Origin: Gammaproteobacteria bacterium
Lineage (GTDB): Bacteria; Pseudomonadota; Gammaproteobacteria; GCA-001735895
NCBI GenBank assembly: GCA_009937625.1
Contig: JAACFA010000035.1
Location: 1 to 44,681 of the forward strand
Reading direction: 5' to 3'
Length of the DNA: 44,681 bases
The notes beneath the pieces are model-generated. The model was not told the DNA's origin and did no database searches. It worked only from the letters and a program-made list of their open reading frames with translations. Of this stretch, positions 9,943 through 29,841 are shown piece after piece (position 1 is the first letter of the stretch; each line of letters begins with the position of its first letter). The position numbers and the translations under genes are program-made.

Positions 9943-10427
9943 GCGTCATTTCGGGGCTTAAATCAAGCCTGTATAGCGGGTAAAAAAACTGGATTCGATA
10001 CTATTGAGATAAAATTGGCACTAAGTCACAGAACTTCGTTGAGGCCTATGGGCTGTAGGTTGAAGTTGAACAAGTCATGCATCAATATACTCTAAGTAGC
10101 TGAACTAAAAGAATTAAATGTATAATAGTTTGATGCGCTTGCGGCCGCACAGTGCGTTTTGCGGCAACATTGGCAGTTACTTCCCGAACATAGACTTGCG
10201 AATTGGTCCACTAATAACGCGAATTACCGGCGAAATTGTCCAAAAAAAGGTGCCAGAGGTCTTGTCTTGGCTGACCGGATGGGTATACCATGGCGGCCTG
10301 TCGGGTTCACCCAAACGTCAGGCCGGGCGGCGAAAACCAGAGATTCCCGAAGAATAACCACAGATCGGGCGCTGCCCTGGTAGAACCGAAGAGAAAAAAA
10401 TATTGGTCTTAAACCGTGGAGGGCAAA

Positions 10428-11894
10428 ATGACTGATTTAGAAGCATGCGTCGAAGCACCAGGCCGCGCGGAGCTGGTGCAGCAGGTCCGGGAAAAAATCA
10501 ACGAACTCGGAATCACCTACATCTATTACCAGTTCATCTCGGTAACGGGTCGGATCGTCGGTAAGGGTATTCCGGCCGATCACTGGGAGCGAACCGCGGA
10601 AAGAGGCTTTCAGCTGGTTTACGGCTCTACCGCCAACCTTTTTATCGATCGCCACGGCGATTACATCGGTTACGGACCGGAAGCGATGGAGCTGGTCGGT
10701 ATTCCCGATCCCGAAACTTTCTGTCAGTTGCCCTGGGATAAGCGCGTCGCGCGCGTGTTCTGCACCTGTTACCGCAACCGTGAAGAGCGCGAGAACCCGG
10801 GTGGCGCACTGACTTCCGATTGCCGCGGCAACCTGAAGCGATTCCACAAGGAATTCCGGGACAAGTACGACATGGATTTCCGCGTCGGTACCGAGCCGGA
10901 GATGATGTGGCTGAAGCGTGGTGAAGACGGCAAACCCGACGGCGGTTTCTCGAATCCCTACTGTTACCACATCGACCAGTTCGAATCGCTGCGCCCGGTA
11001 TTCATGCAGGTGATCGAGTACTGTAACGCGATGGGCCTCGACATGATCCAGGGCGATCACGAGGATGCACCGGGACAGCTCGAACTCAACTGGACCTTCG
11101 ATGACGTGCTGCGTAACGCCGACCGCCTGTCGACCTATCGCCAGATTTGCGCCCAGGTGGCGCGCGAAAACAACCTGATCGCCTGCTTCATGACCAAGCC
11201 GTTCATGGGCGTATCGGCGTCGGGTTGCCATACCAATGTATCGTTGTGGCAAGGCGGGGAGGAGAGCATCAACGCGCTGCACAACGATCCGCTGCCGGGT
11301 ATGGAAGGCGTGTTTACCTACCGCACCGGCGGGGAAAACCTGTTCATGCCGGACACTGACGATATGCAGAAGCCGGGCAAGGTCGGCCTGCAGTGCGTTG
11401 GCGGTATCGTCAATCACCTGCGAGCGCTAACGGCAATCGGTTCCTCGACGGTGAATTCTTATCGTCGCCTGTGGGATACCGGTTTCTGGGCGCCTGTATT
11501 TGCCGATTGGGGTTACCAGAACCGCACTACCGGCCTGCGCATTTCAGCACCGGGCCGCTTCGAGTATCGCTCGGTCGACTCGATGTGTAATCCTTACCTG
11601 ATGGGTGCCGGCTTGCTCAAGGCATTCGAGGATGGTATCGACAACGATATCGATCCCGGGGAGCCGGAGAACCGGAATATCTACCAGGCGATGGAAGCCG
11701 GCAAGGAAGTCAAGAAGCTGCCGATGTCGCTCGGCGAGGCGCTCGACGCCCTGGCCCAGGACGAGGTTATCAAGTCAGCTATGCCGAACGAGATGTACAA
11801 GATCTACCACTGGTACAAGAACGACGAGTGGGAGAAATTCATGCATACCACGACCGAGTGGGACCTGGAGATGTATCTCGACTGCCTGCCATAG
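10428..11894 (+). CDS. Glutamine synthetase-like ligase (divergent GS, paralog of the gmaS-like gene)
   Basis: GS fold motifs: FRVGTEPEMMW, GDHEDAPGQLELNW, CFMTKPFMGVSASGCHTNVSLW, NSYRR, RISAPGRFEYRSVDSMCNPYL; ggaggg RBS before ATG at 10428. Confidence 0.9.
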   Translation: MTDLEACVEAPGRAELVQQVREKINELGITYIYYQFISVTGRIVGKGIPADHWERTAERGFQLVYGSTANLFIDRHGDYIGYGPEAMELVGIPDPETFCQLPWDKRVARVFCTCYRNREERENPGGALTSDCRGNLKRFHKEFRDKYDMDFRVGTEPEMMWLKRGEDGKPDGGFSNPYCYHIDQFESLRPVFMQVIEYCNAMGLDMIQGDHEDAPGQLELNWTFDDVLRNADRLSTYRQICAQVARENNLIACFMTKPFMGVSASGCHTNVSLWQGGEESINALHNDPLPGMEGVFTYRTGGENLFMPDTDDMQKPGKVGLQCVGGIVNHLRALTAIGSSTVNSYRRLWDTGFWAPVFADWGYQNRTTGLRISAPGRFEYRSVDSMCNPYLMGAGLLKAFEDGIDNDIDPGEPENRNIYQAMEAGKEVKKLPMSLGEALDALAQDEVIKSAMPNEMYKIYHWYKNDEWEKFMHTTTEWDLEMYLDCLP

Positions 11895-12002
11895 GCCGGT
11901 TTCGATCGAATCAAGCCCGGCGCCGGCCCCTGGCCGCGCCGGGAGTATTAACCAGGGGCTGCCCCGGTAGCCCGACTGTTAAAACTAGAAGAGGATATTC
12001 CT

Positions 12003-12941
12003 ATGTGTGGTATTGCTGGACTTATCTGGAAAGGCGGTGTTACCAGTGATATCGGTAGCGAGATGACCCAGATGCTGCAGGCGCTGAAGCATCGGGGGCC
12101 GGACTCGACCGGTTTTGCGCTCTACGGTAAAGGCGAGGAAGGCGTATACGTGTTGCGCTTCAAGGTTGCCGAGCAGGAAGACATGAAAACCGGCTTCGAT
12201 ATTCACAAGCAGGTGATCGAGCGCAAGGCGATGGTCGACACAAGGCTCGAGGAAATGGGTGCCGACGTTACCGCGCGCGAAGATGCGACCGAGTACGCCT
12301 TCCGCTATCACTTCAAATTCGGCGGCGACCTGAAGCGCCTGATCGATTTCATCGAGGACATCGAGGGGGTTGAAATCCTGTCGGTGGGCAAGGGCCTCGA
12401 ACTGATCAAGGACCTGGGTGATGCGGCCATCGTTGCCGAACAATACGGTCTGAAGGGTTTCGTCGGAACCCACGCCATTGGCCATACCCGCATGGCAACC
12501 GAATCCGACGTGGATATTCGCTCGGCCCACCCCTACTGGGCTTACCCGTTCAACGACGTTTCGGTGGTACACAACGGCCAGTTGACCAATTACTGGACGA
12601 AACGCCGCGACCTGGAGCGGCGCGGTCATCGTTTCATGTCGAACTGCGACTCCGAACTGATTGCGGTTTACGTTGCCGATCGTATCGACCAGGGCGACGA
12701 GCTCGAATCGGCGATGTCGCGTTCGATCGATGAACTCGACGGCGTGTTTACTTACCTGGTCGCCACCAGCGATCAGCTCGGCATGGCCAAGGACGTCATG
12801 GCAGCCAAGCCGATGGTGCTTTACGAGAGTGACGAATTCGTCGGCCTGGCTTCGGAAGAAGTAGCCATTCGCAGTATTTTCCCGCGTGAAATAGACACCT
12901 GGGATCCTTATCAAGGGGAGGTAAAAGTATGGGCAGCGTAA
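12003..12941 (+). CDS. Class II glutamine amidotransferase-like subunit (MgsA/GlxB type)
   Basis: MCGIAGLIW Ntn-Cys2 start, HRGPDSTGFALYG, GTHAIGHTRMATES, VVHNGQLTNYW, SNCDSELIAVY. Confidence 0.9.
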   Translation: MCGIAGLIWKGGVTSDIGSEMTQMLQALKHRGPDSTGFALYGKGEEGVYVLRFKVAEQEDMKTGFDIHKQVIERKAMVDTRLEEMGADVTAREDATEYAFRYHFKFGGDLKRLIDFIEDIEGVEILSVGKGLELIKDLGDAAIVAEQYGLKGFVGTHAIGHTRMATESDVDIRSAHPYWAYPFNDVSVVHNGQLTNYWTKRRDLERRGHRFMSNCDSELIAVYVADRIDQGDELESAMSRSIDELDGVFTYLVATSDQLGMAKDVMAAKPMVLYESDEFVGLASEEVAIRSIFPREIDTWDPYQGEVKVWAA

Positions 12942-13765
12942 CTACATCCCATGAAATGGGGCTGCACGAGGAGCAGCTGTCGGGTCGCACCCAGCAGATG
13001 TATTTCTCGGCGACCGAGGAAGAAAACTTTACTTATCCGTGGGCCTACGAGGTCGACTACGACAAGTCCGCCGAGTTCGACGCGGCGGACATGGGCATCT
13101 CGGAGATCAACCTCAAGATCCGCGAACTGATGAAGTCGGGTCACGGTTCGATAACCGTGCAGAACCCGCGCGCCAAGCATTCACTCGGGGTCGGTATCCT
13201 GAATCGCCTCAACCTGAAGTTCGAAGGCAGCCTGGGTTATTTCGGCTGCGGCCTGATTGACGGGCCCAACGTGCACATCACCGGCCGCGTCGGCTGGTCC
13301 TGCGCCGAGAACATGATGGCCGGTACCGTGGTCATCGAAAAGAACGCGGGCTCGCTGTTCGGCGCCGCGATCCGCGGCGGCGACCTGGTGTGCAGGGGTC
13401 AGGCCGGCGCGCGCGTCGGCATCGATCAGAAGGGCGGCACTATCATCGTCGGCGGCAGCGTCGGCGCCTTTACCGGCTTCATGATGCAGCGCGGTCGCAT
13501 GATCATCCTCGGCGATACCGGCGACAACCTCGGCGACTCGATGTATGACGGCACCATCTACGTGGCCGGCAAGATCGCGAGCCTGGGCGTCGACTGCGTC
13601 GAAACCGAGTTGACCGATCTCGACAGGAAATACCTGCAGGGCAAGCTCGACCTCTACGGCATGGAAGCGCCCAACGGTATCGACAGCATCGTCAAGCTGA
13701 CGTCGGGCAAGCAGTTGTGGAACTACGACAACCTCGAGCCCACCGAGAAAAAGCTGGTGCTCTAG
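12929..13765 (+). CDS. GXGXG-domain (glutamate synthase alpha C-terminal-like) subunit (MgsB/GlxC type)
   Basis: Repeated G-rich beta-helix pattern: GSLGYFGCGLIDGPNVHITGRVGWSCAENMMAGTVVIEKNAGSLFGAAIRGGDLVCRGQAGARVGIDQKGGTIIVGG. Overlaps the upstream gene by 13 nt. Confidence 0.9.
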   Translation: MGSVTTSHEMGLHEEQLSGRTQQMYFSATEEENFTYPWAYEVDYDKSAEFDAADMGISEINLKIRELMKSGHGSITVQNPRAKHSLGVGILNRLNLKFEGSLGYFGCGLIDGPNVHITGRVGWSCAENMMAGTVVIEKNAGSLFGAAIRGGDLVCRGQAGARVGIDQKGGTIIVGGSVGAFTGFMMQRGRMIILGDTGDNLGDSMYDGTIYVAGKIASLGVDCVETELTDLDRKYLQGKLDLYGMEAPNGIDSIVKLTSGKQLWNYDNLEPTEKKLVL

Positions 13766-13792
13766 GCATCACCGAGAATTTGGAGAATACAG

Positions 13793-15133
13793 ATGTCCGA
13801 AAAAAAGAAAGATCCATATAACCTCGGCAAGAGCTTCATCTTTCCGCCCGAGGTTATCAACGATATCCACATCAAGTCGGAGCTGGGACGTTACCGCATG
13901 CGCGGTTTCTCGCTGTTCAAGAAAATCCCGACCTGGGACGACCTGACCTTCATGCCGGGCACGCTGACCCGATTCGTGATCGAGGGTTACCGCGAAAAAT
14001 GTCTGACCAAGACCATTATCGGCCCGGAAGCGAAACGTCCGCTGGAACTCGATATACCGGTATACATCACCGGTATGTCCTTCGGCGCGCTTTCTTACGA
14101 GGCCAAGACGGCCCTGGCGCGCGGCGCGACCATGGCCGGCACCGCGACCTGCTCCGGCGAAGGCGGCATGATACCTGACGAGCGCCGTTATTCGTCGAAG
14201 TGGCTGTACCAGTGCATCCAGTCGCGTTACGGCTTCAATCCGAACCACCTGCGGCTGGCCGATGCCTGCGAATTTTTTATCGGCCAGGGCTGTAAGGTTG
14301 GCCTCGGCGGCCACCTGATGGGGCAGAAGGTCACCGACCAGGTCGCCGAAATGCGCTCGCTGCCGGCCGGTATCGACCAGCGTTCGCCGGCGCGCCATCC
14401 AGACTGGATGGGTCCGGATGACCTGGCGCTCAAGATCCAGGAAGTTCGCGAGGCTACCGATGGACAGATTCCGATCCAGCTCAAGCTCGGCGCGGCGCGG
14501 GTTTACGACGACGTGCGCATGGCGGCTAAAACGGGGCCAGACTCGATTTACATGGATGGCATGGAAGGTGGTACCGGCGCCGGGCCGCACCTGGCGACCG
14601 AGGATACCGGGGTTCCGGGTATTGCCGCGATTCGCCAGGCGCGCCAGGCGCTCGACGATGTCGGCATGTCGGGCCGTATTACGCTGGTTTACGCCGGGGG
14701 TATCCGCAACGGCGCCGACGTCGCCAAGGCGATCGCGCTGGGCGCGGACGCGGTGGCCATCGGCCACTCGGCGATGATGGCGCTGAACTGCAACAAGGAT
14801 ATCCCGGAAGCCGATTACGAGAAGGAAATGGGCGTCGAAGCCGGTTACTGTTACCACTGCCATACCGGTCGTTGCCCGGTGGGCGTTGCCACCCAGGATC
14901 CCGAGTTGCGCAAGCGTCTGGATCCCGACGAGGCGGCCGAGCGGGTCTATAATTTCCTGCACACGCTGACCATCGAGGCGCAGCTGTTCGCACGCGCCTG
15001 CGGCAAGACCAACATCCATTCGCTGGAGCCGGAAGACCTGGCGGCATTGACGCTCGAGGCCTCGGCCTGCGCGCAGGTGCCGATGGCCGGTACTCAATAC
15101 ACCGTCGGTCGCCCCGACATGACTCGTTTCTAA
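13793..15133 (+). CDS. FMN-binding glutamate synthase-like subunit (MgsC/GlxD type)
   Basis: PVYITGMSFGALSYEAKTALARGATMAGTATCSGEGGM, IPIQLKLGAARVYDDV, MDGMEGGTGAGP, CYHCHTGRCPVGVATQDPELR (3Fe-4S Cys loop). Confidence 0.93.
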   Translation: MSEKKKDPYNLGKSFIFPPEVINDIHIKSELGRYRMRGFSLFKKIPTWDDLTFMPGTLTRFVIEGYREKCLTKTIIGPEAKRPLELDIPVYITGMSFGALSYEAKTALARGATMAGTATCSGEGGMIPDERRYSSKWLYQCIQSRYGFNPNHLRLADACEFFIGQGCKVGLGGHLMGQKVTDQVAEMRSLPAGIDQRSPARHPDWMGPDDLALKIQEVREATDGQIPIQLKLGAARVYDDVRMAAKTGPDSIYMDGMEGGTGAGPHLATEDTGVPGIAAIRQARQALDDVGMSGRITLVYAGGIRNGADVAKAIALGADAVAIGHSAMMALNCNKDIPEADYEKEMGVEAGYCYHCHTGRCPVGVATQDPELRKRLDPDEAAERVYNFLHTLTIEAQLFARACGKTNIHSLEPEDLAALTLEASACAQVPMAGTQYTVGRPDMTRF

Positions 15134-15144
15134 GGAGGTCGAAA

Positions 15145-15534
15145 ATGACTGAACTCAGTATTAACCATTTCCTCGAGGGCGACGGCGTCGATACCGAGCG
15201 CGAGAAAATCATCGGTCAACACATCGGCTACCGTTACGATGTGAACCTGGTGCCGGATATGGATCGCTGTACGCCATTCCTGCGCAAGTACATGGAGATC
15301 ATGGGCTGGCAGGACCTGAACTGGCTCGAAGACGTGCACATGGGATACGAGGAAGGGCGGCCCGCGGTGTTCGATCGCAATATCAACGGCTGGGTGACCA
15401 TCCCGGAAGATATCGAACTGCCGGATAACCAGCAGGACCGTGACATGATTGCGCGCGAACTGCTGGTCAAGTTCCAGATGGCAAAGGGACATCCGATGGT
15501 CGATCTGCGCAAGGCTTACGAAAAGTTTGCCTGA
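15145..15534 (+). CDS. Conserved-looking hypothetical protein, 129 aa, last gene of the first GS/mgs operon
   Basis: Strong RBS (aaggaggtcgaaaATG); 11 nt after the mgsC-like gene; no family recognised. Confidence 0.75.
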   Translation: MTELSINHFLEGDGVDTEREKIIGQHIGYRYDVNLVPDMDRCTPFLRKYMEIMGWQDLNWLEDVHMGYEEGRPAVFDRNINGWVTIPEDIELPDNQQDRDMIARELLVKFQMAKGHPMVDLRKAYEKFA

Positions 15535-23759: not shown

Positions 23760-24392
23760 ATGTCCGATCACGACAAGCAACAGGCCAGGGACGATACGAT
23801 ACAGCAACACAGTGTCGAGGCACTTGAGATTGCGATTGGCAAGCAGGTGCGCGCGTCGCGCAAGCGCCTCAACCTGACAGTTGCCGCGCTCGCCAAGCAG
23901 GCGCAGCTCTCGACCGGCATGCTGTCCAAGATCGAAAACGGCCAAACCTCACCCTCGCTGGCGACGCTGACCTCGCTCGCCAACGCGCTGCAGGTGCCGG
24001 TGACCTCCTTTTTTCGGGGCTATGAAGAACAGCGCGATGTCACCTATATCAAGGCGGGGGAGGGACTGCCGATCGAGCGGCGCGGCTCTGGCGCCGGGCA
24101 CCAGTACCAGCTGCTCGGGCACACCATCGGCAAGCCCTACAATATCGAACCCTACCTGATTACCATCGACGACCAGTCCGAAGTGTTTCCTGTGTTTCAA
24201 CACGCCGGCACCGAGCTGATTTACATGCTCGAGGGCCGGGTTATCTACCGCCACGCCAATAAAACCTACACGCTGGAGGCGGGTGACACGCTATTTTTCG
24301 ATGCCGAGGCCTCGCACGGCCCGGATGAGATACAAAAACTGCCCTGTCGTTACCTGTCGATCATCGTTTCGGAGTCGTCTGCTGCTCAGTAA
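23760..24392 (+). CDS. XRE-family HTH regulator with C-terminal cupin domain
   Basis: GKQVRASRKRLNLTVAALAKQAQLSTGMLSKIENGQTSPSLATLTSLANALQVPVTSFF then cupin (QHAGTELIYMLEGRVIYRHANKTYTLEAGDTLFFDAEASHGP). Confidence 0.93.
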   Translation: MSDHDKQQARDDTIQQHSVEALEIAIGKQVRASRKRLNLTVAALAKQAQLSTGMLSKIENGQTSPSLATLTSLANALQVPVTSFFRGYEEQRDVTYIKAGEGLPIERRGSGAGHQYQLLGHTIGKPYNIEPYLITIDDQSEVFPVFQHAGTELIYMLEGRVIYRHANKTYTLEAGDTLFFDAEASHGPDEIQKLPCRYLSIIVSESSAAQ

Positions 24393-24489: not shown

Positions 24490-25364
24490 ATGTGCGGAAT
24501 AGCAGGTGTTTTATACAAGCAGGCGGGCAACCACGAAATCGGCAAAACGCTGATCGAAATGCTCGATGGCTGCCAGCATCGCGGACCGGACAGCACCGGC
24601 TTCGCGCTGTATGGCGAGGATAAGGATTTGCTGCAGCTGCGATTTATCGTGCCGACCGATGCCGGTGCTTGCCAGGACGCGATCGACGGTATCGCGACGC
24701 TGCTCGAGCGCCACGGAGCGACTATCGAATCCGAGCTGTCGGTGGGTTGCTCCTACCAGATCTCGGTCAATTTCGAAGGTGACCTGCTGGCTTTCACCAA
24801 GGACATCGAGGAACACGCCAAACTGGTCTCGGTCGGGCACGCGCTCGATATCATCAAGGACGACGGCACCGCGCACGAACTCGACGAGCTTTATCACGTC
24901 GGCGAGGTCAGGGGTACCCACGGTATCGGGCACGTGCGGCGCACCCGTTCTGGGCCACCGGCTTCGAAGACATAGCGATCGTGCACAACGGGCAGATCAC
25001 CAATTACTGGAAAATGCGCCGCCGGCTGGAACGCCGCGGTTTCACCTTCCATACCGATAACGACAGCGAACTGGTCGCGGTGTATCTCGCCGACAAACTG
25101 GAACAGGGCGAGACGCTCGACAGCGTGCTGGAAACAGCGATCGCGGACCTGGACGGCACGTTTTCGTTCCTGGTGTCGACGCCAAACGAAATCGGCTACG
25201 CCAAGGACAACCTGGCGGCCAAGCCGATGGTGCTCTACGAAACCGACGACATGATTGCCATCGCCTCCGAGGAGGTCAGCCTGAATCGACTGTTTCCAGG
25301 GCAATCCATCAATTCAACCGAACCGGCCCCGGGGACCTTTCAGACATGGTCACGATCGATTTAA
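24490..25364 (+). pseudogene. Class II glutamine amidotransferase-like subunit (MgsA/GlxB type, copy 2), disrupted by frameshift/microdeletion
   Basis: ORFs 24490-24975 and 24981-25364 together match copy 1; ...GTHGIGHVR joins out of frame to HPFWATGFEDIAIVHNGQITNYW, with the segment equivalent to MATESDVDIRSA missing. Confidence 0.8.
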
Positions 25365-27322
25365 GTCATACCAGCATCACCGATGCAAACCAGCAGATTC
25401 GCGACTGGGCGCGTGACGGCCAGGACGTGGAAATTATCAATCCCGACGCCCGTCACAACATCGGTGTCGGCCTGGTCGATCCTATTACCGTGCGGATCAA
25501 GGGTTCCGCGGGTTACTTTTGCGGCGGTCTGTCCGACAGCGCGCACTACGAGATCGAGCACAACGCCGGTTGGGCGGTAGGGGACAACATCTATAAAGGC
25601 TCTGTCGTCGTCGGCGGCAATGCCGGCGCCATCGCCGGGGTTGCGATTCGCGGCGCTGAAATCGTCGTGCGCGGCAACATGGGCAGCCGCGCCGGCCAGG
25701 TGATGAAGGCCGGCACGCTGTGCTGCGGCGGTAACGCGGCTTTCATGGCCGGCTACATGATGTACGGCGGGCGCATTATCATTCTCGGCGACGCCGCGGA
25801 AAAAGTAGGACAGGACATGAGCGCCGGGGAAATCTTTGTCGGCGGCAACATCAAGAGCCTCGGCAACGACACCATGATCGTCGATATGGAAGCCCACGAG
25901 CGCGATGAAATCATGGCGTTCCTCGAGCGCTATAAATTGAACTACCGGGGCGATTTCACCAAGGTCGTCAACGCCGGCAAGAAACTGCGCTACGCCAACG
26001 CCGAGCCGCGCTCGCGCCCGCAGCCTTTCTTCGTGTCGTCGAAGTCCAGCAATTACTGGAATCCGAAAGTGCAGGAAGATATCTGGATCAAGGGCGAGGT
26101 CGGTCGCTACCGCATCCGCGGCTACGGCGCCTCCAAACCGGTGCCGCATCTGAATGACATCGCGTTCGCCAAAGACGTTTCGGGCGTTGCCGCGAGGCCC
26201 GAAGAGCTCAAGGATATCAATCTCAAGACCACCGTCGGCGGGCGCTTCGGCGCCAAACCGCTGAGCTTATCGATGCCCGTTATGATTGCGCCGATGAGTT
26301 TCGGTGCACTCAGCCGCTCGGTCAAGATCGCGCTGGCGCGCGCCTCGCGCCTGTCGGGCATTTCCGAAAATACCGGCGAGGGCGGCATGCTCGACGAGCA
26401 GCGCGCCGAGGCCGATCAGCTCATCTTCCAGTGCCTGTCGGGCCGGCTCGGCTGGAACGTCAAGGACATGCAACGTGCCGACGCGATCGAAATATATATC
26501 TCGCAGGGCGCCAAGCCCGGCCTCGGCGGTCAGCTGATGGCGAAGAAGGTGACCCCGGAACTGGCCGCGATACGCGGAATCCCGGTGGGTATCGATTTAC
26601 GCTCGCCGTCGCGTCACCCGGACGTGCTCGGCGCCGACGACCTCGTCATCAAGCTGCAGGAATTCCGCGAAGCGACCTTCCACAAGGTGCCGATCGGCAT
26701 CAAGATGGGGGCCGGCCGCGTCAACGACGATATCAAGATCGCCTACAAGGACGGTTTCGACTTTGTCGAACTCGACGGCCTGCAGGGCTCGACCGGCGCC
26801 GCCAGCACCGAGGTGCTGGAGAATGTCGGCATTCCGACCCTGTCCGGGGTGCAGGAAGCGATCGACGGCCTGGCCGAAATCGATGCCGGCGACGATATGG
26901 ACCTGGTGATGATGGGCGGCATCAAGGATGGTGTCGATGTCGTCAAGATGCTGGCGCTGGGCGCCGACTGTACCTCGGTCGGCACTTCGGCGATCATCGC
27001 CGGCGGCTGCATCGCCTGCATGCAGTGCCACGTCGGCACCTGCCCGGTGGGTATCGCCACCCAGGACCCGGAGCACGAGGCACGTTACGACATCGACCGC
27101 CAGTCGATGAACATGCACCGTTACTTCGAGTCGCTGCGCTGGCAGATCGCCGCGATCACCAAAGCGTTGGGCTATGACGACGTGCACAAGGTCAATCGCG
27201 GCGACCTGGTGGCGTTGACGCCGGAGGCGGCCGATATCACCGGCTTGCCGTTCAGGCCCGAGCATCGTGAAACCCGGCGCCCGCTGACCGGGCTCGAACT
27301 CCTCGACCGGCAGGCGGGCTGA
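25346..27322 (+). CDS. Fused GXGXG + FMN-binding glutamate synthase-like protein (MgsB-MgsC/GlxC-GlxD fusion, 658 aa)
   Basis: N-terminal GXGXG repeats; C-terminal APMSFGALSRSVKIALARASRLSGISENTGEGGM, ELDGLQGSTGAA, CIACMQCHVGTCPVGIATQDPEH. Confidence 0.92.
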   Translation: MVTIDLSHTSITDANQQIRDWARDGQDVEIINPDARHNIGVGLVDPITVRIKGSAGYFCGGLSDSAHYEIEHNAGWAVGDNIYKGSVVVGGNAGAIAGVAIRGAEIVVRGNMGSRAGQVMKAGTLCCGGNAAFMAGYMMYGGRIIILGDAAEKVGQDMSAGEIFVGGNIKSLGNDTMIVDMEAHERDEIMAFLERYKLNYRGDFTKVVNAGKKLRYANAEPRSRPQPFFVSSKSSNYWNPKVQEDIWIKGEVGRYRIRGYGASKPVPHLNDIAFAKDVSGVAARPEELKDINLKTTVGGRFGAKPLSLSMPVMIAPMSFGALSRSVKIALARASRLSGISENTGEGGMLDEQRAEADQLIFQCLSGRLGWNVKDMQRADAIEIYISQGAKPGLGGQLMAKKVTPELAAIRGIPVGIDLRSPSRHPDVLGADDLVIKLQEFREATFHKVPIGIKMGAGRVNDDIKIAYKDGFDFVELDGLQGSTGAASTEVLENVGIPTLSGVQEAIDGLAEIDAGDDMDLVMMGGIKDGVDVVKMLALGADCTSVGTSAIIAGGCIACMQCHVGTCPVGIATQDPEHEARYDIDRQSMNMHRYFESLRWQIAAITKALGYDDVHKVNRGDLVALTPEAADITGLPFRPEHRETRRPLTGLELLDRQAG

Positions 27323-27324
27323 GC

Positions 27325-29841
27325 ATGAAAATATCTGACGCTGATTATCAGTTCTCGGTTACCGCGACGCCGGATCTCGAGGACGACACCGCCGATATCC
27401 ATTACGTGCCGGCGCCGTGCCAGGTCGCCTGCCCGATCGGCACCGACGCGCCCTCGTATATCGCCTATATCTGGGAAGGCAAGAACGAGGAAGCGCTCGA
27501 AGCGATCACCGCGACCAACCCCTTTAGCGCGATCTGCGGCCGCGTTTGCGATGCGCCCTGCGAACCGGCCTGCCGGCGCGCCGACAGCGATGGCGCGATC
27601 GCGATTCGCAACCTTAAGCGTTACGTGCTGGATTCGTTAGGCCCGGGGTTCGCATTGCCGCCGGTCGCGGTGACCCGCGAGCAGACCGTCGGTATCGTCG
27701 GCGCCGGTCCGGCAGGGCTGACCGCGGCGCACGATCTCGCCGAGGCCGGCTACGAGGTGCACGTCTACGAGGCCACCGATAAGCTCGGCGGCATGATGTT
27801 CTGGGGCATTCCGCGCTTTCGTCTGCCCGAGGAAGCGGTGCAGCAGGATATCGACCGCATGACCGCGCACTGCCCCGGCATCAAGATTCACACCAATACC
27901 GCGCTCGGCGACCAGGTTTCGCTGGACCAGCTGAAGCAGCAACACGCGGCGGTGCTGTTGTCGATCGGCGCCTTTGTCGGCAAGCCGATGGGGATTCCGG
28001 GCGAGTCCGAGCCCTTCGTCAAGGACGGGGTGGGTTTCCTCTACCACGTCAACGCCGGCGCTCGGCCGACCCTGCCGGAAACCGTGCTGGTGATCGGCGG
28101 CGGCGACGTCGCGATGGACGCCTGTCGCGTCGCCAAACGGTTGCCCGGCGTCAAGCACGTCAAGGTCATTTACCGGCGTGACTACGAGGCGATGCCGGCG
28201 CGACGCGAGGAATTGCAGGGCGCGATCGACGAGGGTATCGAGATTGTCTATAACACCCAGCCGGTCGAGGTTATCGACGGCAAGGCGCTGCGCTGCGTGC
28301 GCACCGAAATGGGAGAGCCGGACGAAGACGGTCGTCGGCGGCCGATCAATATCGCGGGCTCGGAGCATGAAATCGAATGCGGTCTCGTGATTGCCGCGGT
28401 CGGCCAGAAGGCCGAATGCGATGAGCTCGCGCAGAGCGGCCTGATGGACTGGGACCGCGTCAAGACCCGCCTCGAGGGCATGGTAACCGAGGATGCGAAG
28501 GTATTCGCCGCGGGCGACGGCGCCTTCGGCGGTTCGACCATCGTCGAAGCGATGTACCAGGGCCACCGCGCGGCCTACTATATGAAGGCATATCTCGAAG
28601 GTAACGAAAATCCCTTGCCCTATCGCACGCCGTACCGCACCCGGCACGTACCAATTTGTAACGATCCGGCCTGGGAAATCAACCCGCGAGTTCATCAGAA
28701 ATTCCATGGCCTCGGCGAGATCCCGATCGAGTTCCCTGAAATCGAATCGACCTACACCGCCGACGAAGCGAAGTTCGAAGCGGCACGCTGTTTTCGCTGC
28801 GACGCCGAAACCGGTTCGGCCGACTATACCGTGACCAGCCGCGAGGCGATTTTCGCGATGTCGCGCATCAACCCGCAGGACGCCGAGATCGAGTCCAGTA
28901 TCCTGCAGGGCAGGCTGGAAAACCGCGATAATCCGTTCGGCATCGAGCACGTCGCGACGCTGGACGACCTGGTATTCCTGCCGGCCAACCTGTCGCGCCT
29001 GGTTATCGACCCGTACCGCGAGGATTGTAAAACCGCGACCGAGCTCGGTGCTATCAATAGCCTCAAGCTCGAGATCCCGTTCGTGGTGGCCGGCATGGAT
29101 CTTGCGCCCGACGAGATTCGCGAAGCCTACGCCACCGCCATTGTGGCCCACGGCGCCGCCTATATCGGCGCGAAACCTATTGGCGACGACGCCAGCTGGA
29201 TACAGATCGCCGAGACCGAAGCCGACACCGCTGCCGATGCCGTCGTATTCAGGGGGGGCCAGGCCATCGAGGCTAGCAAGGTCGAGCGCGCGCGTGATTC
29301 CCAGCCGGTCGGATTGCTGGTGGACAATCACAACCTGGCGCAGGCGATACCCTTCGCGCTGGAGCAGGAAATCGATTTCCTGGTGCTCGACGCCGGGGAC
29401 GGTTTGCCGGGCATCGAAGCCGAGCTTGCGGGCGCGCCCGATATTTCGATTTTGCATCATGCGGTTAGTCAGCTGCGGGCGCTCAACCGCGAGGAAGATA
29501 TCGACCTGGTTTACTTCGGCGGTTTACGCACCGGTACCGACAGCGCAAAAATTCTCGCGCTGGGCGCGACGGCCGTGATCATTGGCGTCGCGGCGGCGCT
29601 TTCGCTCGGCGCCGATATTTCCAGCGGCAGCCCGCTCTACGATGCCGACCTGGATGCCGAGGAGCGCGCCGAGCGCAGTTACAATCTGCTGCAGGCTTTC
29701 AACGCCGAGGCCGCGATGATGGCGCGCTGCACCGGCAAGACCAACGTGCACAACCTCGAACCCGAAGACCTGCGCGCGATCACGCTGACGGTGTCGCATG
29801 CCGCGGGCGTGCCGATGGCGGGGAGTTTGAATCAGCATTGA
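27325..29841 (+). CDS. GltD-like FAD/NAD(P) oxidoreductase fused to a degenerate FMN glutamate-synthase-like barrel (838 aa)
   Basis: PCQVACPIGTDAPSYI...CGRVCDAPCEPACRR (4Fe-4S), GIVGAGPAGLTAAHDLAEAGYEV, VIGGGDVAMDACRVAKRL, AAGDGAFGGSTIVEAMYQGHRAA; then LDDLVFLPANLSRLVIDPYREDCKTATELG...KTNVHNLEPEDLRAITLTVSHAAGVPMAGS aligning to the MgsC-like protein but without its Cys loop. Confidence 0.88.
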   Translation: MKISDADYQFSVTATPDLEDDTADIHYVPAPCQVACPIGTDAPSYIAYIWEGKNEEALEAITATNPFSAICGRVCDAPCEPACRRADSDGAIAIRNLKRYVLDSLGPGFALPPVAVTREQTVGIVGAGPAGLTAAHDLAEAGYEVHVYEATDKLGGMMFWGIPRFRLPEEAVQQDIDRMTAHCPGIKIHTNTALGDQVSLDQLKQQHAAVLLSIGAFVGKPMGIPGESEPFVKDGVGFLYHVNAGARPTLPETVLVIGGGDVAMDACRVAKRLPGVKHVKVIYRRDYEAMPARREELQGAIDEGIEIVYNTQPVEVIDGKALRCVRTEMGEPDEDGRRRPINIAGSEHEIECGLVIAAVGQKAECDELAQSGLMDWDRVKTRLEGMVTEDAKVFAAGDGAFGGSTIVEAMYQGHRAAYYMKAYLEGNENPLPYRTPYRTRHVPICNDPAWEINPRVHQKFHGLGEIPIEFPEIESTYTADEAKFEAARCFRCDAETGSADYTVTSREAIFAMSRINPQDAEIESSILQGRLENRDNPFGIEHVATLDDLVFLPANLSRLVIDPYREDCKTATELGAINSLKLEIPFVVAGMDLAPDEIREAYATAIVAHGAAYIGAKPIGDDASWIQIAETEADTAADAVVFRGGQAIEASKVERARDSQPVGLLVDNHNLAQAIPFALEQEIDFLVLDAGDGLPGIEAELAGAPDISILHHAVSQLRALNREEDIDLVYFGGLRTGTDSAKILALGATAVIIGVAAALSLGADISSGSPLYDADLDAEERAERSYNLLQAFNAEAAMMARCTGKTNVHNLEPEDLRAITLTVSHAAGVPMAGSLNQH

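Follow-up and report, generated by a model that had tools for sequence, protein, structure and literature searches.

N-methylglutamate synthase, MgsABC (GlxBCD type), has GATase, GXGXG and FMN-barrel parts and occupies a slot beside gmaS, the gene for gamma-glutamylmethylamide synthetase. Paracoccus aminophilus carries an annotated mgsABC-gmaS operon (PMC4543880), and the classical enzyme was reported to carry out a redox-neutral exchange between glutamate and methylamine, according to the passage of PMC6237917 that cites Pollock and Hersh. NADPH glutamate synthase, GltBD, has a GATase, an FMN barrel with a 3Fe-4S loop, a GXGXG helix and a GltD-type reductase. The electron path of GltS leads from NADPH to FAD, onwards through two 4Fe-4S clusters and one 3Fe-4S cluster, and ends at FMN; a further barrel of GltB is truncated and carries no cofactor (PMC8097209). 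In dihydropyrimidine dehydrogenase/PreTA, a single chain carries a GltD-like module and, after it, a TIM barrel. This barrel is an active FMN enzyme, and the protein has a further ferredoxin domain.

As a source of nitrogen, methylamines are widespread in the sea, and the locus described here came from a marine bacterium. We analysed a 44,681-nt stretch of its DNA (the whole of contig JAACFA010000035.1, here called the window), and all coordinates are window positions. A gene for an 838-aa protein adjoined genes for methylamine use, the operon order being XRE-cupin regulator, GATase, 658-aa protein, 838-aa protein, gmaS and fhs, with tmm and tdm nearby (Table 1). The 838-aa protein joined a GltD-type reductase to an MgsC-type barrel without catalytic motifs (the dead barrel), and the 658-aa protein joined GXGXG to an active FMN barrel; together with the GATase they formed a trio. 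In comparison to MgsABC, which has neither a reductase nor a dead barrel, the trio had both, and the parts that are separate as MgsB and MgsC were fused. In contrast to GltBD, the trio had no Glu_syn_central domain, and its second barrel was fused to the reductase and apparently derived from MgsC. This origin, and the loss of activity, distinguished the barrel of the 838-aa protein from that of dihydropyrimidine dehydrogenase/PreTA. The preliminary description called the predicted subunit plan unfamiliar; as a whole it is new, although dihydropyrimidine dehydrogenase and the truncated second barrel of GltS provide parallels. No GltD-linked N-methylglutamate synthase was found in the open-licence literature. 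We consider it probable that the trio makes N-methylglutamate at the expense of NAD(P)H and that its dead barrel docks the reductase on the active barrel.

Table 1. Features of the trio operon in the window
Feature	Position	Strand	
XRE-cupin regulator, operon head	23760..24392	+	
Class II glutamine amidotransferase (GATase, MgsA-like); open in relatives, broken here	24490..25364	+	
658-aa protein, GXGXG joined to active FMN barrel; retains Cys loop and GEGGM	25346..27322	+	
838-aa fusion of a GltD-type reductase to a dead barrel of MgsC type	27325..29841	+	
GltD-type part, residues 30-500: 4Fe-4S region at the N-terminus plus Rossmann domains for FAD and NAD(P); permuted as in NfnABC/StnABC	27412..28824	+	
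Permuted CxxC pair C489, C492, invariant	28789..28800	+	
Dead barrel, residues 540-834: 8 predicted strands, without Cys loop and GEGGM/KPGxGG	28942..29826	+	
DDLVFLPANLSRLVIDPYRE arm: near-invariant in dead barrel, degenerate in active barrel	28963..29022	+	
Retained beta7 motif YFGGLRTGTDSAK of dead barrel	29512..29550	+	
gmaS, gamma-glutamylmethylamide synthetase; matches 7CQL, 624 bits	29897..31213	+	

The GATase gene of the window was split into two frames, with a 34-base gap near 24935 relative to the close relative L039. It was intact in relatives, and the break was either an assembly error or a real lesion. The window also held a second complete cluster (10416-15534) that encoded a GS/GmaS-like protein of 492 aa, a GATase, GXGXG, an FMN barrel and a conserved 129-aa protein with no family match. 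The FMN barrel of this cluster (13793-15133) kept the Cys loop and was 86-90% identical in distant Gammaproteobacteria; no reductase adjoined the cluster.

The reductase half and the dead barrel

The N-terminal half of the 838-aa protein had the N-terminal 4Fe-4S region and the FAD and NAD(P) Rossmann domains of GltD. Namely, the Pfam search found Fer4_20 at residues 30-104 and Pyr_redox_2 at 122-413, the two dinucleotide motifs were GAGPAG (126-131) and GGGDVA (258-263), and cysteines were present at 32, 36, 71, 75, 79 and 83, which agreed with the GltD-like half proposed from a first reading of the sequence. The protein missed the curated GltD/GltA cut-offs (407 bits against 516 for the best NCBIfam model, and 274 against 472 for gltA). 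The closest solved relatives of the GltD part were the large subunits of NfnABC and StnABC, and GltD. These large subunits and the NCBIfam PRK12771 family were the nearest sequences and shared a permuted C-terminal CxxC with the 838-aa protein, but they had no MgsC-type barrel, and the protein scored below the curated cut-off of such GltD-type NCBIfam models. In comparison with E. coli GltD, the N-terminal CxxC of cluster I was absent and a CxxC was found at 489-492 instead. Since the RCLxC arm at the N-terminus of 4YLF chain B aligned with residues 470-493, this CxxC appeared to be permuted to the end of the reductase. It was invariant in 61 sequences and was located at the reductase C-terminal end, just before the dead barrel. 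It was likely that C489 and C492 replace the missing pair and complete 4Fe-4S cluster I.

The C-terminal half matched the window's 446-aa MgsC-like barrel (13793-15133) at both ends, as had been noticed before (34% identity over 223 columns and 46% over 52). It also matched the 658-aa barrel (25%, E 2e-16) and PF01645 (E 7e-7), and hhalign aligned the dead barrel with MgsC-type barrels over its whole length (residues 540-834, 300 columns, probability 99.95, E 3e-38), a match well above chance. In the alignment, the MSFGALS, GEGGM, KPGxGG, SPxRHPD and GGTGA motifs, the strand-5 lysine and the 3Fe-4S loop were all missing. Moreover, the Cys loop, GEGGM, KPGxGG, SPxRHPD and GGTGA were absent in all relatives checked, and none of the best 80 of 182 relatives had the 3Fe-4S Cys loop or the GEGG/KPGxGG motifs. 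Conservation was strong in three stretches, namely in the DDLVFLPANLSRLVIDPYRE arm, in the beta7 motif GGxRSGTDxAK and in CTGKTNxHNxEPEDLRA. The beta7 motif, which is the phosphate-gripping position in FMN barrels, was kept as GGLRTGTDSAK in the window protein and as GGxRSGTDxAK in 79 of the best 80 of 182 relatives; it may hold a phosphate ligand. The AlphaFold2 model of the 838-aa protein was confident (mean pLDDT 87), and its barrel had eight strands with the helices after strands 2 and 3 missing. Within the genus, dN/dS was 0.09-0.24 for the dead barrel against 0.03-0.12 for the GltD part. The lost motifs, the confident predicted fold and these dN/dS values together indicate that the dead barrel is a maintained, non-catalytic barrel under purifying selection, which bears out the pseudo-barrel without a 3Fe-4S loop and GEGGM of the preliminary description.

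In the barrel tree, the dead barrels formed one clade (100/100) inside the MgsC lineage, next to the MgsC-type protein of the second window cluster (96/85). The 658-aa active barrels were a separate clade that also grouped with MgsC, and GltB was outside. By this tree, the dead barrel descends from MgsC, the FMN subunit of N-methylglutamate synthase, rather than from GltB. Because the stem of the dead clade was long (2.1 changes per column), its exact sister and placement are unsure. A tandem duplication of the adjoining 658-aa barrel was unsupported, since the dead barrel grouped with the window-type MgsC, albeit on this long stem. Descent from the GltS central domain was rejected, as hhalign gave a probability of 0.3 against the GltB central domain; the 838-aa protein had no Pfam match to PF04898, the GltS central domain. 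For GltB itself, profile comparison supported a common origin of its FMN barrel and its central domain (L150-L155; probability 93, E 3e-7).

Distribution of the trio and its exchange with mgsABC

We scanned one genome per species (84,980 species) with the dead-barrel alignment, found 182 relatives and analysed the best 80. These best 80 came from Gamma- and Alphaproteobacteria, several former Deltaproteobacteria, Planctomycetes, Lentisphaeria, Gemmatimonadetes and a Spirochaete. The order of the three genes was nearly constant across the 80 loci, and the fusion was full-length in 68 of them, in several phyla, the remainder being mostly cut by contig ends. The dead barrel was always accompanied by an active barrel and, with one exception, by the reductase. 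The exception was L122 (1947-5000), a locus from a Desulfobacteraceae MAG, where a GXGXG-FMN protein was joined in frame to the dead barrel and the reductase was missing; this fusion was found in a single MAG, where the assembly could have joined the two parts. The trio was uncommon, with 7 carriers among 369 Gammaproteobacteria genomes. A plasmid search with the whole 838-aa protein returned GltD relatives only and no fusion.

In the window genus, the trio was located directly upstream of gmaS. Six sister genomes from the same genus had separate GATase, GXGXG and FMN (MgsC) genes in the slot of the trio, and this MgsC was 77% identical to MgsC of the P. aminophilus operon. The GmaS tree contained well-supported branches that forced at least three swaps between the trio and mgsABC. 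This exchange of places with a known N-methylglutamate synthase suggests that the trio is an NAD(P)H-driven version of it. GmaS was present in all seven trio genomes and in 15 of the 362 other Gammaproteobacteria; the naive probability of this co-occurrence, 1e-9, is too small because some genomes are related. The window GmaS, which matched the crystallised enzyme (7CQL) at 624 bits, had the amine-pocket pattern Q-x-D-x-E...E-x-N, readable in QNDHEDANGQFEMN, whose residues are given in PMC7948447. Outside the window genus, gmaS followed the trio in 13 of 66 loci, and SoxBA-like (NMG-dehydrogenase type) genes were downstream of the trio in other loci. Both the linkage to gmaS and the substitution of mgsABC for the trio at one position were found, although not in every genome. 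Counting against an N-methylglutamate synthase, one genome (G117) had a complete XRE-mgsABC-gmaS-mgd operon elsewhere while its trio stood alone among unrelated genes, and G434 was similar, with gmaS beside canonical mgsABC and the trio elsewhere. Several trio genomes (Planctomycetes, Lentisphaeria, Desulfobacterota) had no close GmaS, the partner being a more distant glutamine-synthetase-like protein. These separations and gmaS-poor genomes imply that the substrate may differ between lineages.

It was considered whether the same kind of synthase serves one or more other amines, such as ethylamine or other alkylamines, with methylamine used in some lineages only. The coexistence of the trio with a full mgsABC-gmaS-mgd set in G117 would fit, as would the trios of Planctomycetes and Desulfobacterota, which were accompanied by SoxBA-like genes and by GS-like proteins that shared no more than 37-42% identity with GmaS. 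However, the neighbours in the window genus were Tmm, Tdm, GmaS and folate C1 genes, and we regard this reading as unlikely. An ordinary split NAD(P)H glutamate synthase that uses glutamine and makes glutamate was judged distinctly unlikely, even though every GltS-type part was present and the trio was unlinked to gmaS in many genomes. Of the 55 trio genomes, 49 also encoded a true GltB with its central domain; the trio is thus no substitute for GOGAT, and the possibility that it was the only GOGAT of its genome was ruled out. Slot swapping with mgsABC beside gmaS and the grouping of the active barrel with MgsC, not GltB, also spoke against glutamate as the product.

The remaining alternatives concern the dead barrel itself. 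It could still bind FMN or another phosphate ligand and act as a sensor or a second electron stop, in line with the nearly universal beta7 motif and the retained beta8 glycine; but the strand 1-6 motifs that hold the flavin ring and the substrate in MgsC were gone in all relatives, which makes such a role improbable. A fusion that arose by chance or during assembly, or a pseudogene in decay, might be suspected from the broken GATase gene next to it in this assembly. This has next to no probability, as it was refuted by the conservation of the same full-length fusion in 68 loci and disagreed with the dN/dS of the dead barrel.

Proposed electron input and docking

The preferred reading, a reductase-driven N-methylglutamate synthase, can be compared with the distribution of the 3Fe-4S cysteines. 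The active barrel of the trio kept them in 61 of 61 loci, unlike the GmaS-linked MgsC proteins, which mostly had none. Namely, all four plasmid MgsC proteins next to a GmaS with 57% or more identity to the window protein had lost the cysteines (two from Paracoccus, one each from Methylobacterium and Rhizobium). Of 15 further close relatives of the Paracoccus MgsC from other Gammaproteobacteria, 11 had lost them, and among the 11 of these relatives that had GmaS in the stretch analysed the loss was seen in 7. Most slot MgsC proteins of the window genus were also without them, with one copy (L134) keeping two. Four GmaS-linked MgsC proteins retained the Cys loop with no adjoining reductase, so the link between cysteines and reductase was not strict, and a rule of 'no reductase, no cysteines' was ruled out. 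Judging from these sequences, the 3Fe-4S cluster is dispensable without a reductase and always retained with one, as would be expected if electrons are fed into the trio, while the reductase-less enzymes carry out a redox-neutral exchange. Within this one enzyme family (L144-L148, L157-L170, L176), cysteine loss was variable: most GmaS-linked copies lacked the cysteines (YDDWHEGKDPAGITTQ) and few had them.

The preliminary description had also suggested that the pseudo-barrel may dock the reductase on the 658-aa barrel. In the AlphaFold2 model of the 838-aa protein, pTM was 0.64, so the reductase and the dead barrel were not fixed to each other. In the model of the natural L122 fusion, pTM was 0.88 over 1018 residues, and since the dead barrel made up a third of this chain, this pTM suggests that it is confidently placed on the active barrel. 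For the alignment of this model, in-frame neighbouring genes were read through one stop and served as anchoring rows only. The contrast between the two pTM values, one of them from a single MAG sequence, fits docking of the dead barrel on the active barrel, and this part of the suggestion can stand as a prediction. Foldseek searches with both models were dominated by GltD/DPD and by GltB/glycolate oxidase matches and did not settle the docking geometry.

Under the preferred reading, the 838-aa protein would bring electrons into an amine-glutamate synthase made of three parts. The GATase would split gamma-glutamylmethylamide made by GmaS and hand on the methylamine, which the 658-aa protein would add to 2-oxoglutarate, reducing the imine to N-methylglutamate; with the GATase and GmaS among the partners, N-methylglutamate is the most likely product. 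It is plausible that NAD(P)H drives the reaction. The GltD part would take hydride from NAD(P)H, and its 4Fe-4S clusters would relay the electrons to the 3Fe-4S cluster of the active barrel and from there to FMN. The dead barrel, as a decommissioned MgsC, would keep the reductase on the active barrel through a contact that replaces the one between two MgsC subunits, and it may help to line a tunnel or an electron path, like the truncated central domain in GltS. A more far-reaching version, possible but rather doubtful, is that a decommissioned MgsC independently became the counterpart of the GltS central domain, docking the reductase, lining the amine tunnel and gating electrons, so that methylamine is fixed with ATP and NAD(P)H through a GS/GOGAT-like cycle. 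On the preferred reading, the trio would give a second example, besides the GltS central domain, of a dead FMN barrel recruited alongside an active one. As the reductase-bearing version alternates in one slot with a mostly Fe-S-less version, reductive and redox-neutral synthesis can be compared directly by experiment. Family-level annotation would label the trio genes as plain parts of glutamate synthase.

Two further loci were observed. In one genome (L142, G000:C195), a GltD-like 547-aa protein adjoined a separate FMN glutamate-synthase-type protein of at least 618 aa. The Olavius algarvensis Gamma 3 symbiont (L029/L053), a worm symbiont from the window genus, had the trio, but in its assembly the fusion gene was interrupted by a stop and by a break of the frame.
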